This document shows, piece after piece, positions 57,855 to 61,261 of a stretch of 64,000 nt of DNA. Position 1 is the first letter of the stretch. The number at the start of each line of letters is the position of its first letter. Source of the DNA: Thermobifida halotolerans. GTDB taxonomy: Bacteria; Actinomycetota; Actinomycetes; Streptosporangiales; Streptosporangiaceae. Both the position numbers and the translations under genes were made by a program. The notes under the pieces are model-generated. The model was not told the origin of the DNA and did no database searches. It was given only the letters and a program-made list of their open reading frames with translations. The stretch lies in the NCBI RefSeq assembly GCF_003574835.2, contig NZ_CP063196.1:3348001-3412000 (forward strand), given 5' to 3'.

Positions 57855-58298
57855 TCATCTGTTGCCGAGCGGGCCGGCAACACCGTCCGGTTTCAGGGCG
57901 ATCCGGACGTCGTCGAGGAACGGCAGGTCGGCGGGGAGCCAGTCGACCTCGGTGAGGGTGTCGGCGGTGAGCCAGCGCAGCGCCATGTGCTCCAGCGGCC
58001 GGGGCTCGCCGTCGTGCAGTTCGGCGGTCCACAGCCGCAGCACGGCCCGCGGGGCGCCGGGGCGCGCGGGGAAGTCGACCTCGCGGTCGAAGCGCCCCAG
58101 GGGTCGGACGTCGACGCCGAGTTCCTCCCGGCACTCGCGGACCAGGGCGATCTCCTCGGTCTCACCGGGATCGACCTTGCCTCCGGGAAACTCCCAGCGC
58201 CCGCGCATGTGTGCGGGCTCGGCCCGCTGGGCGGCCAGGACCGCGCCGCCCCGAATGATCGCGGCGCCGACGACGATCAGGGTCTCCGAGTCTGTCAT
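57855..58298 (-). CDS. Nudix hydrolase (MutT-like)
   Basis: 147 residues. The full Nudix box GGKVDPGETEEIALVRECRE-ELGV has all the conserved Gly and Glu residues (GX5EX7REUXEEXGU). The length and RWEFPGGK motif point to an (8-oxo-)dNTP-diphosphatase-type MutT, but the substrate is not certain. No good ribosome site before the ATG. It ends 125 bases before the typA start. Confidence 0.88.
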   Translation of the reverse strand: MTDSETLIVVGAAIIRGGAVLAAQRAEPAHMRGRWEFPGGKVDPGETEEIALVRECREELGVDVRPLGRFDREVDFPARPGAPRAVLRLWTAELHDGEPRPLEHMALRWLTADTLTEVDWLPADLPFLDDVRIALKPDGVAGPLGNR

Positions 58299-58344
58299 GG
58301 GGGGACACTACCGCCCGTGGGGGACAGCCGGTCCGCCCGCGGGT

Positions 58345-58641
58345 TCAGGCCGCGCTGCGCAGTCCCCGGCCGCCCCGGACAGCGTCGCAGATCCGGCGGG
58401 ACGCGCCCTCGGGGTCCCCTGCCGGGTGGGTCAGCCTGGCTCCCCGCTCGTCCGTCCAGCGGAAGAGTCCGTTCACGCACCAGACGGTCAGTCCCCTGCG
58501 GATCGACAGCACCGCGACGCCGCGGTGGCTGGCCCGGTAGAGGCGGTTCAGCCCGGCTGCCGAGAGGTGGTCGTGCAGCGCGGCGACCGCCTGCGCCGGG
58601 GTGGTCGGGGCATGGGGGGTGATCCAGGAGAGTGTGCCCAC
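58345..58641 (-). CDS. Small hypothetical protein (98 residues)
   Basis: A conserved-looking frame with GTG start and GGAAAGG nine bases upstream. The sequence has a compact, mixed composition (LYRASHRGVAVLSIRRGLTV, VNGLFRWTDERG), with no membrane segment. I do not recognise a family. Confidence 0.6.
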   Translation of the reverse strand: MGTLSWITPHAPTTPAQAVAALHDHLSAAGLNRLYRASHRGVAVLSIRRGLTVWCVNGLFRWTDERGARLTHPAGDPEGASRRICDAVRGGRGLRSAA

Positions 58642-58776
58642 GTACGGATGCCTTTCCGGGTTGAGTCACAGAACGGTCACGACTCGCGTGCCGGACTGGT
58701 GATACCCCCGTGGTCCACTGCGGCAAACATCCCGGATTCTGGTGGTTTTTCCGAAAGGGCGCGCCCGCCCGTACCC

Positions 58777-59295
58777 TCAGACGGCCACCGCGAGGGCCTG
58801 GCGCAGAGCGGGGGCGGCGACCTCGGCCCACGCGTCGATGACGCTCAGCGGCTGGGCGAGTTCGGCGCCGGACAGCAGCAGTCCCGGCTCGGCCACCCAC
58901 GCGCCCAGGTCCGACAGCAGCACCCGCAGGTCGCCCTCGATGTTGTGCCCGTTGCGCAGGTCGTCCACCACCGCGAACGGCAGCGCGATGACGTGGGAGA
59001 GCCCCAGCTCCGGAAGGCGGTCCAGGAAGACCTTGAGCAGTCCGGTGTAGCTGCCGTGCACCTGCGGGGTGGCCACGATCAGCACGTCGCTGCCGGCGAT
59101 CGCGGCGAGCGCGTCCGCGACGCCGTCCTCGACCGTGTCGGCGAGCAGTGCCGGCCCCAGTTCGGCGAGGTCGATGACGTCGATGTGCGCGGTGACAGCG
59201 GTGTGCGCGGCGATGGCGTCGGCGGTGTGGACGGCCGCGGCGCGCAGGGCGGAACGGGTCCGGGGGGCGGCGACGAGCACGGTGAAGCGGGTCAT
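58777..59295 (-). CDS. NADPH-dependent FMN reductase-like flavoprotein
   Basis: 172 residues of the flavodoxin-like NAD(P)H:FMN reductase family (SsuE/MsuE type): LVAAPRTRSALR near the N-terminus, VLIVATPQVHGSYTGLLKVF for flavin binding, then LPFAVVDDLRNG. It would supply reduced FMN to a monooxygenase, often for sulfonate sulfur release. The ATG has GGAG six bases upstream. A leader peptide and hairpin lie about 180-290 bases upstream on the same strand, hinting at control by sulfur supply. Confidence 0.85.
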   Translation of the reverse strand: MTRFTVLVAAPRTRSALRAAAVHTADAIAAHTAVTAHIDVIDLAELGPALLADTVEDGVADALAAIAGSDVLIVATPQVHGSYTGLLKVFLDRLPELGLSHVIALPFAVVDDLRNGHNIEGDLRVLLSDLGAWVAEPGLLLSGAELAQPLSVIDAWAEVAAPALRQALAVAV

Positions 59296-59476
59296 GGTGA
59301 TCTCCAGGTGGATGCGGCCGCGGGGCCGCGGGGGACGTAGCGCGAAGGAATCGTCGGAAAAACAGCAGCGGAAGGCGGTTCTCCCAGACACGGCGGGACA
59401 CGCACGTTCCTGATCACCGGGGATCGACGTGGGCGTGGGCCGGGGGCTCTGGCGCGCGCAGGGAAACCGCGACGAC

Positions 59477-59497
59477 GGCGGGGGCGACGGCCCCGCC
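59477..59497 (-). terminator. Attenuator-like hairpin after the leader peptide
   Basis: GGCGGGG ... CCCCGCC with a 7-base loop, starting 8 bases past the leader peptide stop on the minus strand. Position fits an attenuator that responds to translation of the leader. No clear U tract follows. Confidence 0.5.
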
Positions 59498-59504
59498 ACT
59501 GGCG

Positions 59505-59582
59505 CTAACTACGACAGAGCGCGCTCGCCTGCTGTCGCAGATCGACGTGCAGGCGCTGGACGAGCAGCTCACCGGCGGACAT
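59505..59582 (-). CDS. Short leader peptide (25 residues) with SALC motif
   Basis: Encodes MSAGELLVQRLHVDLRQQ-ASALCRS. The R-x-HVDL-x-x-x-x-SALC pattern matches the short leader peptides found upstream of sulfur and cysteine-related operons in Streptomyces and relatives. A cysteine codon near the end would stall ribosomes when cysteine is scarce. An ATG three codons earlier (MVYMSAG) is also possible. It lies 209 bases before the FMN reductase start. Confidence 0.8.
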   Translation of the reverse strand: MSAGELLVQRLHVDLRQQASALCRS

Positions 59583-59681
59583 GTACACCATGATGAGTGG
59601 ACACGGGGATCGCGTCAATGCGTGATCGACGGTTTTGTCAGGGTTATCAGGTGACGAAGGACACAGGAGATTCCCCGTCTG

Positions 59682-60815
59682 ATGAGCACATTGACAAACG
59701 CGCAGATGGTGACCGCTGACGGGATTCTCGACGGCTGGCTGCGCGTCGAGGACGGGCGGATCGCCGAGATCGGTTCGGGTCCCGCGCCGCACGGCGCGGC
59801 GGAGACCGTCGACCTGGGCGGCCGCCTGCTCGCCCCCGGCTACGTCGACATCCACGTCCACGGCGGCGCCGGAGCGTCCTTCGGTGACGGCGACCCCGAA
59901 CGGGCGCTGGCCGTCGTCGAGTCCCACCGGAGGCACGGCGTGACGACCCTGGTGGGCAGCCTGGTGACCGCCGCCCCCGAGGAGACGCTGCGCCAGGTGG
60001 CGGCACTGGCCGAACTGTGCGAATCCGGTGATCTGGCCGGAATCCACCTGGAGGGCCCGTACCTGGCTCCCGGCAGGTGCGGGGCGCACGACCCGGCGCT
60101 CCTGCGCCGCCCGGACCCGGCCGAGTTCCGGCGGATCCTCGCGGCCGGCCGGGGACACGTCGCGATGATCACGCTCGCGCCCGAACTCCCGGGCGCGCTC
60201 GACCTGGTCCGCGCGGCCGTGGCCGAAGGCGTGGTCGCGGCCGTGGGCCACACCGACGCCGACTACGACCGGACCCGCGCCGCCTTCGACGCCGGAGCCA
60301 CCGTGGCCACGCACCTGTTCAACCAGATGCGCCCGGTCCACCACCGGGACCCCGGGCCGGTGGTGGCGGCGCTCACCGACGACCGGGTGGTGGTGGAGTT
60401 GGTCAACGACGGCGTGCACGTCCACCCGGGGGCCGCCCGGATGGCCTGGAACGCCGCCGGAGCCTCCCGGGTGGCCCTCGTCACCGACGCCATGTCGGCG
60501 ACCGGGCTCGGGGACGGCGAGTACACCCTGGGCCGCCTGCGGGTCCGCGTCGTGGGCGGCACGGCCCGCCTGGCCACCACCGGAGCGATCGCCGGCAGCA
60601 CCATCACGCTCACCGACGCGGTCCGCCGGGCGGTCCGCGAACTGCGGGTCCCTCCGGTCGAGGCGGTCCGCGCGGCCGGCGCGGTCCCCGCCGCCGCACT
60701 CCGCCTCACCGACGTGGGCGTTCTCGCGCCGGGGTGCCGCGCCGACCTCCTGGTGCTGGAGGAGGACCTGTCCGTCCGGACCGTCTACCACCGCGGGCGC
60801 CCCCTTCCTCCGTGA
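59682..60815 (+). CDS. nagA: N-acetylglucosamine-6-phosphate deacetylase
   Basis: 377 residues of the amidohydrolase fold: metal-binding DIHVHGG near residue 57, the catalytic HLEGPYLAPGRCGAH, the metal His in AVGHTDADY, and VTDAMSATG with the catalytic Asp. Hydrolyses GlcNAc-6-P to GlcN-6-P in chitin and cell-wall sugar use. No other nag gene is adjacent. The ATG is 14 bases from GGAG, longer than usual. Confidence 0.92.
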   Translation: MSTLTNAQMVTADGILDGWLRVEDGRIAEIGSGPAPHGAAETVDLGGRLLAPGYVDIHVHGGAGASFGDGDPERALAVVESHRRHGVTTLVGSLVTAAPEETLRQVAALAELCESGDLAGIHLEGPYLAPGRCGAHDPALLRRPDPAEFRRILAAGRGHVAMITLAPELPGALDLVRAAVAEGVVAAVGHTDADYDRTRAAFDAGATVATHLFNQMRPVHHRDPGPVVAALTDDRVVVELVNDGVHVHPGAARMAWNAAGASRVALVTDAMSATGLGDGEYTLGRLRVRVVGGTARLATTGAIAGSTITLTDAVRRAVRELRVPPVEAVRAAGAVPAAALRLTDVGVLAPGCRADLLVLEEDLSVRTVYHRGRPLPP

Positions 60816-60943
60816 GACGGCACCGCACGACCCCCGTCGGTTACCCAACGGCGTGTCGCGATTACTTTCCGCGACATCACGGGCGTCAGAGGCAACAATG
60901 CGGAGAGGAATCAGTCCGGTCCGCCCGTGAGGACAGAAACACG

Positions 60944-61261
60944 ATGGTCTACACCCGACGCAGCGCCCGTACCGTAGTCCCCGCGATGGTGCTCGCCCGT
61001 TCCAGCCAGCGACGGCACCTCGCCCGCCTGGCCGAGGCACTCGCCCCGCACGGGATCTGGGCGCGGGTGTTCGAGGACGGCCGCCCCTTCCTGCGGGTGA
61101 GCAATCCCGAGTCCGAGTTCGCCGTCGAGGACGTCACCTGTGAGCGGCGCGAGAACGGCCACGTCTTCGTGACGTCGTTCGGCATGTACCTGGGCGACTG
61201 CGACGATCTCGACCGAAGCGTCGAACGGACCGCCCGCCTGCTCGGCGTGACCCCGGTCTGA
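60944..61261 (+). CDS. Small hypothetical protein (105 residues)
   Basis: A frame with ATG and a GAGGA site about eleven bases upstream, following nagA by 128 bases. Sequence: an Arg-rich N-terminus (VYTRRSARTVVPAMVLARSS), then FEDGRPFLRVSNPESEFAVE and FVTSFGMYLGDC. It looks like a conserved actinobacterial protein, but I do not recognise a family. Confidence 0.6.
   Translation: MVYTRRSARTVVPAMVLARSSQRRHLARLAEALAPHGIWARVFEDGRPFLRVSNPESEFAVEDVTCERRENGHVFVTSFGMYLGDCDDLDRSVERTARLLGVTPV

Follow-up and report, generated by a model that had tools for sequence, protein, structure and literature searches.

Organization of the locus and identity of the reductase

The window examined here, a stretch of 64,000 nucleotides from Thermobifida halotolerans, carries on its minus strand a short open reading frame (ORF) followed by a reductase gene. 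The ORF, MSAGELLVQRLHVDLRQQASALCRS (59505 to 59582), comprises 25 codons and a stop, with its ATG at 59582 and its TAG at 59507 to 59505, and the UGU codon of Cys23 (59514 to 59516) is the presumed stall codon. Directly 3' of the stop lies a GC hairpin, H1 (59477 to 59504, minus strand), without a U-tract right behind it; it opens a C-rich and G-poor untranslated region (UTR) of 209 nt (59296 to 59504) which separates the leader stop from the start of the reductase. The latter, a 172-residue NAD(P)H:flavin reductase of the FMN_red family (58777 to 59295, minus strand), is preceded by a Shine-Dalgarno (SD) sequence GGAG (59302 to 59305), and a GGAG occurs between -30 and -4 in 62 of the 63 orthologous sequences described below.

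A nagA-type gene (59682 to 60815) is divergent from the leader and the reductase, and the minus-strand neighbours comprise a frame of 98 aa that matches no family, a gene of the MutT/Nudix type and one that is TypA/BipA-like by its sequence. There is no sulfur gene among these neighbours, which makes it probable that the regulated unit is the single reductase gene, as the first-pass annotation had suggested. The leader frame also forms the end of a longer open frame, 511 codons in all (59505 to 61040, minus strand), which is antisense to the nagA-type gene and could mislead gene callers. An Rfam scan of 58000 to 61000 returned two chance-level matches and none at gathering score.

The sole promoter-like site found between 58500 and 60000 is TTGACG-17-CATCAT (59618 to 59590, minus strand), with its -35 hexamer at 59613 to 59618 and its -10 hexamer at 59590 to 59595, 17 nt apart. 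At all 63 orthologous loci a TTGAC is located 33 to 37 nt ahead of the leader start (36 nt in 51 of them), and an SD-like motif ahead of this start is absent from all 63. Because of this spacing and of the missing SD, we predict that the transcript starts at the A of the leader ATG, at about 59582, and is leaderless. A transcript start upstream of 59591, as anticipated earlier, does not agree with this geometry.

The reductase had been labelled as SsuE type, a label that its score does not support: while the protein matches PF03358 (FMN_red) with 70.3 bits for a gathering score of 24, it reaches 53.4 bits against NCBI's SsuE model TIGR03567, whose curated cut-off is 164.05. Among solved structures, those closest to it in sequence belong for the most part to FMN reductases, e.g., 4ltd and 7qw4. 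No SsuD over the cut-off was found in the host (best 53.7 against 518.2 bits). Since the reductase is far below the SsuE cut-off and the host lacks an SsuD over the cut-off, its role in sulfur metabolism is only putative. In another genus (G365), a homologue located behind a related leader passes the SsuE cut-off with 189.2 bits, and in G040 a related leader (L073, G040:C8:21000-36000) is followed by what looks like an ssu operon, which includes an LLM monooxygenase, and then by a reductase homologue (names given by eye). Near this ssu operon, a second leader-like frame stands before a gene that by eye is cupin/cysteine-dioxygenase-like.

Conservation of the leader peptide and of its Cys codon

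Searching upstream of orthologous reductases, as proposed in the first-pass annotation, bears out the 25-codon leader frame. A reductase homologue is present in 119 of 150 genomes sampled from the family, and the leader precedes it at all 30 of the best-matching reductase loci of this sample, one of them (G021) having a leader with a GTG start. Among 40 further reductase homologues, paralogues included, a leader lies within 600 nt in the four with 52 to 66% identity and in 5 of the 36 with at most 48% identity, and the sensor codon is TGT in the nine leaders found in this way. From a total of 103 loci, removal of 38 duplicate leader plus UTR sequences and of two loci (L118 and L119) that end 421 and 147 nt past the leader, and where the reductase was not found, leaves 63 distinct sequences, all with the reductase downstream of the leader. 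The ALC end is kept in each of the 63, whereas the loss of SALC had been put forward as an observation that would speak against the proposal.

Within the genus, the leader is 100% identical over 24 or 25 aligned residues in the four genomes. A degenerate DNA pattern retrieved 53 named stretches, mostly from Nocardiopsis and for the rest mainly from Streptomonospora, Thermobifida and neighbouring genera, and in a sample of 394 genomes of the class, 88 contain a leader match at E ≤ 0.01, of which 23 are near-identical (counted by hand). Throughout the Nocardiopsis-Thermobifida group the entire leader peptide is fixed, and not its core alone. An in-frame TGA seemingly inside some leaders (L077 to L080) turned out to be the stop codon directly after the Cys. 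One record, L117, is titled Glycomyces fuscus TRM 49117, yet its leader and reductase are of the Nocardiopsis type, so that a problem with its name or classification is suggested.

Over leader codons 4 to 23, pN is 0.006 and pS 0.27 (pN/pS 0.022), as compared with 0.20 and 0.36 (0.55) for 400 random pairs of the reductase, these figures being descriptive since the sequences compared share ancestry. The lowest pN among the scanned 20-codon windows of the reductase is 0.035 (100 pairs). Arg16 is encoded by CGA, CGG, CGC, AGA or AGG across orthologues and the residue is kept, with one Lys, and the codon of Leu11 alternates between CTG and TTG with the residue unchanged. As the Arg16 residue stays while its codons switch, selection acts on the peptide. 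The N-terminal MSAGELLVQ of the leader is conserved as well. Gly4 (59571 to 59573, minus strand, in the window) is encoded by GGT in every one of the 63 orthologues, against 12% of the Gly codons in flanking genes, and we found no reason for this invariance; a pairing of this codon with a CTCACC beside the SD was considered and dropped, since CTCACC is present in only 8 of the 63.

The window peptide matches the NCBIfam model NF042934 ('putative leader peptide', cis_reg_atten) with 23.9 bits (E 2.2e-5, profile positions 2 to 19 of 19), or 22.4 bits in the genome-wide search, the cut-off being 27 bits. With HVDL, a Cys 11 residues further on (H12 to C23) and a stop after codon 25, it has the core spacing of the family. 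The earlier claim that it fits the actinobacterial pattern of cysteine leaders is supported, at a score below the cut-off. Under a lax threshold, the host genome gives five matches, namely one over the cut-off, the window's leader and three at E 0.001 to 0.006; the same threshold yields matches in 10 of 14 control genomes, none over the cut-off. The other host leaders, L011, L013, L014 and L015 (G000:C1:3739547, 3979331, 3682110 and 2608198), have xVD...C ends. The genes behind these four leaders code for a sulfurtransferase of the 3-mercaptopyruvate type, an O-acetylhomoserine/serine sulfhydrylase, the alpha subunit of a 2-oxoacid:acceptor oxidoreductase and a NirA/sulfite-reductase-like protein. 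In host and class together, 42 downstream genes were extracted (two leaders yielded none) and ten were scanned against profiles. Beyond the host four, a phosphoadenylyl-sulfate reductase and an SsuE pass the cut-offs, and SsuC-like, TauD-like, dicarboxylate-symporter-like and MoaD/ubiquitin-like products, several of them cut proteins, fall below. Other downstream genes, named by eye, include non-sulfur ones (carbonic-anhydrase-like, regulator-like). Leaders of the NF042934 type often precede sulfur genes.

The sensor Cys codon is TGT in all 63 orthologues, 11 of which have Cys-Cys in place of the single Cys codon of the window leader. It is likewise TGT in 41 of 42 class-wide leaders picked by similarity and in all 108 leaders of the NF042934 type that could be parsed. 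Each of these 108 has the Cys 11 residues past the residue that opens xVD; in parsing, preference was given to frames carrying a Cys near the expected place. This second set stems from the 110 top-scoring places found in a search of 197 class genomes, with a match in 131 of them, and partly overlaps the 42 leaders picked by similarity; two places were left unparsed, L182 and L266. The NF042934 model does not select for the codon because it is built on protein. In flanking genes TGT represents 12% of Cys codons at the class-wide loci and 16% at the orthologue loci, redundant loci included. Inside the NF042934-type leaders, Cys codons upstream of the sensor (n = 118) are 106 TGC and 12 TGT, and those downstream 36 TGC and 16 TGT. 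Over 107 distinct sequences, a third-position T is found in 100% at the sensor against 1 to 21% in adjacent codons, and the base that follows the sensor codon is C (80%), T (17%) or A (3%) and never G; G follows the sensor codon in a few of the 42 leaders picked by similarity. Since the bases around the codon vary, the sensor U is not part of an obvious longer motif. Our literature search found no description of a TGT bias at the sensor codon for actinobacteria. At L266 (G300:C12:120530-120983), the leader-like frame HIDLLRVSSAIS has a Ser in place of the sensor Cys and is possibly decayed or tuned to a different signal.

The hairpin and the untranslated RNA

H1, whose stem arms are GGCGGGGC and GCCCCCGCC (within 59504 to 59477), had been noted as a GC-rich hairpin that follows the leader at once. 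It holds as a conserved feature over the 63 sequences but not by the window alone, where the hairpin by itself is not significant (z -1.0, p 0.14). When compared with shuffles, the 42 nt past the leader stop have a mean z of -1.36, with 63% of the 63 sequences at z < -1, while 275 control windows further along the same UTRs have a mean z of 0.00, with 16% at z < -1. The stem sequences vary between loci with pairing kept (e.g., L020, L021, L032 and L038), and because stems differ while pairing persists, H1 is probably under selection. The fold of the whole leader and UTR of the window is uninformative (z -0.46).

Excluding its last 20 nt, the UTR of the window contains 43% C and 31% G over its first 189 nt. 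C exceeds G in 63 of 63 orthologous UTRs, likewise without the last 20 nt, and on average in 97% of their 78-nt windows; given this C-richness throughout, a contribution of Rho is possible. The window has a weak terminator-like site (59386 to 59369), with six pairs, three of them G-C, and a T-run a few bases on. A conserved intrinsic terminator was rejected since H1 has no U-tract and T-runs of at least five occur in only 2 of the 63 UTRs (the window and L017), at unlike places.

UTRs of the Nocardiopsis clade have a helix, GACACCGG(A):(T)CCGGTGTC, between the sequence that follows H1 and a region about 70 to 117 nt before the reductase; one analysis recovers it in 34 of 35 UTRs and a separate one in the other, L116. 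This helix (GACACCGGA/TCCGGTGTC) is conserved in the 35 UTRs of the clade (e.g., L034, L114 and L151). By eye, 27 of the 35 have an anti-SD segment that pairs with ACCCAGG at the SD, and this pairing reaches p < 0.05 in 10 of 35, against 0 of 35 for a control target. The helix after H1 and the anti-SD:SD pairing cross, which implies a pseudoknot or mutual exclusion, and a pseudoknot switch is possible in this clade. The test of anti-SD pairing used 60 UTRs, leaving out three of less than 190 nt; in the 25 sequences outside the clade, the window included, neither helix signal is above chance (mean z 0.03 for the anti-SD and -0.12 for the other). A switch that masks the SD is therefore plausible for Nocardiopsis and hypothetical at this locus.

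Folding models of the stalled and free states at 30 loci show no consistent release of the SD. With the Cys region blocked, pairing of the SD falls by more than 0.15 at only three loci (L017, L041 and L045), and one of the two SD candidates of L039 is also freed to this extent; in this set the start of L020 was placed 3 nt off. In the window, SD pairing goes from 0.87 to 0.89 when the Cys region is blocked, so that the SD is not freed. Pairing of the Cys region with a GACGA..GCGCT element, 38 to 54 nt before the reductase, dominates single folds (e.g., L023, L029 and L033) and was dropped as a candidate, since p against shuffles is below 0.05 at only 2 of 30 loci.

Proposed control of the reductase and alternative explanations

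The ORF, the conservation of its peptide, the promoter geometry, the invariant UGU, the conserved hairpin, the association with the reductase and, for the family, a frequent association with sulfur genes are directly supported, and it is probable, in our opinion, that the frame is a cysteine-responsive, leaderless leader peptide which controls the single flavin reductase gene. The mRNA would begin at the leader ATG, and ribosomes entering at this 5' AUG would read 22 residues until they reach the UGU of Cys23, located three codons ahead of the stop. A shortage of Cys-tRNA would make the ribosome pause at this UGU with the conserved HVDLRQQASAL chain in its exit tunnel. Held at the end of the leader, it would block the OFF state of the downstream RNA, be it a masked reductase start, premature termination or both, and the flavin reductase would be made when sulfur or cysteine is short. 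We infer the stall, its cause, the sign of the regulation and the downstream step. More tentatively, we propose that the leader may be an arrest peptide that senses cysteine with the help of its nascent chain: HVDLRQQASAL, while in the tunnel, may slow the wobble-read UGU enough that a single Cys codon reports the supply of Cys-tRNA, or the state of tRNA-Cys.

The contrast in pN/pS between peptide and reductase, the invariant sensor UGU, the host leader-like frames ahead of the four genes named above and the anti-SD segment enriched in 35 Nocardiopsis-clade UTRs argue for a cysteine leader with translational attenuation, for which the cysteine-codon leaderless ORFs of Mycobacterium smegmatis offer a precedent, as these are described to attenuate translation in the excerpts of PMC9031893 and PMC13236596 that cite them. 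Against it stand the single Cys codon, where published mycobacterial leaders have runs, the failure of stalled folding to free the SD at more than 3 of 30 loci, the window not among them, the duplexes between the leader end and the UTR, which beat shuffles in 2 of 30, and the lack of an anti-SD signal outside the Nocardiopsis clade. As to the link with cysteine, only one of the other four leaders in the host exceeds the cut-off, the lax E-value at which the remaining three were found yields matches in 10 of 14 control genomes as well, some downstream genes are not sulfur genes, and the host has no SsuD over the cut-off. A variant in the downstream step, possible though in our view doubtful, is Rho-dependent attenuation, proposed for mycobacterial cys leaders by Seliverstov et al. 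(PMC1262725, as far as its excerpt goes): with ample cysteine, the ribosome would leave after codon 25 and Rho would load on the C-rich UTR and end the transcript, which a pause at UGU23 would prevent. The C-rich, G-poor composition of all 63 UTRs agrees with this, but C>G composition has little predictive power, only three codons separate a ribosome paused at UGU23 from one that has reached the stop, and the 35 sequences of the Nocardiopsis clade display complementarity directed to the SD instead. We favour translational attenuation over Rho-dependent termination, the evidence for this locus being not decisive.

Conservation of the whole peptide around a single Cys would also suit an arrest peptide that responds to something else (thiol redox state, flavin or an antibiotic), the cysteine being merely part of the arrest motif, and a flavin enzyme as target in a host without an SsuD over the cut-off points the same way; we nevertheless regard this as improbable, as neither flavin nor an antibiotic explains why the motif precedes many sulfur and cysteine genes class-wide. 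Still less probable is a small protein acting in trans by binding a partner or an RNA: the conserved N-terminal MSAGELLVQ would be accounted for, but the reductase stands in cis behind the leader at 63 distinct loci and is absent only from the two end-cut ones, and constraint at the codon level (UGU of Cys23, GGT of Gly4) and a hairpin at the stop would be unexpected. That the frame is a chance ORF in GC-rich intergenic DNA can practically be dismissed. Frames of at least 20 codons are indeed numerous and overlapping between 57000 and 62500 (61 in all, genes included), many of them spurious, and the leader frame runs on into the long antisense frame; 63 distinct conserved loci and a pN/pS of 0.022 contradict it.

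Polycysteine leaderless short ORFs located upstream of sulfur genes of mycobacteria reportedly confer cysteine-responsive attenuation (Canestrari, 2020, is said to describe them). The present leader shares with these mycobacterial leaders a short ORF, here predicted to be leaderless, with Cys codon(s) near the stop, and differs in having one Cys instead of a run, another peptide and a stand-alone flavin reductase as target. With NF042934 it shares the HVDL element, a UGU Cys 11 residues later just before the stop, and a place before sulfur-related or other genes, whereas its score is below 27 bits and the whole peptide, not the core only, is fixed. Cysteine-rich leaderless uORFs of mycobacteria appear in the excerpt of Shell 2015 (PMC4633059). 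In the excerpt of Seliverstov et al. 2005 (PMC1262725), terminator-less cys leader peptides are predicted, in mycobacteria and Propionibacterium acnes ahead of cys operons and in Bifidobacterium ahead of cbs. The present leader and theirs have in common a Cys codon close to the stop and no conserved intrinsic terminator, while those leaders have runs of Cys codons and cys or cbs targets, with no flavin reductase among the targets reported in that excerpt. The portion at hand of a Streptomyces lividans reannotation (PMC8079986) lists eight leader peptides, none termed cysteine-dependent. The uORFC-8-2 motif of Rhodobacterales cysS, in the excerpt of PMC8632094, is similarly an attenuator with a Cys codon in a uORF, but its Cys codons are in tandem and mostly UGC, and it has an intrinsic terminator.

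This kind of leader is already known, and what is striking here is the conservation of the whole peptide together with the invariant UGU. A stand-alone flavin reductase joins the genes found behind actinobacterial cysteine-type leaders, across the Nocardiopsis-Thermobifida group, and the two conserved features provide a sharp, testable handle on leaders that have a single sensing Cys codon. If true, nascent-chain-assisted sensing would be the general principle by which actinobacterial xVD...C leaders work, and the invariant UGU of the stall codon would be its hallmark.
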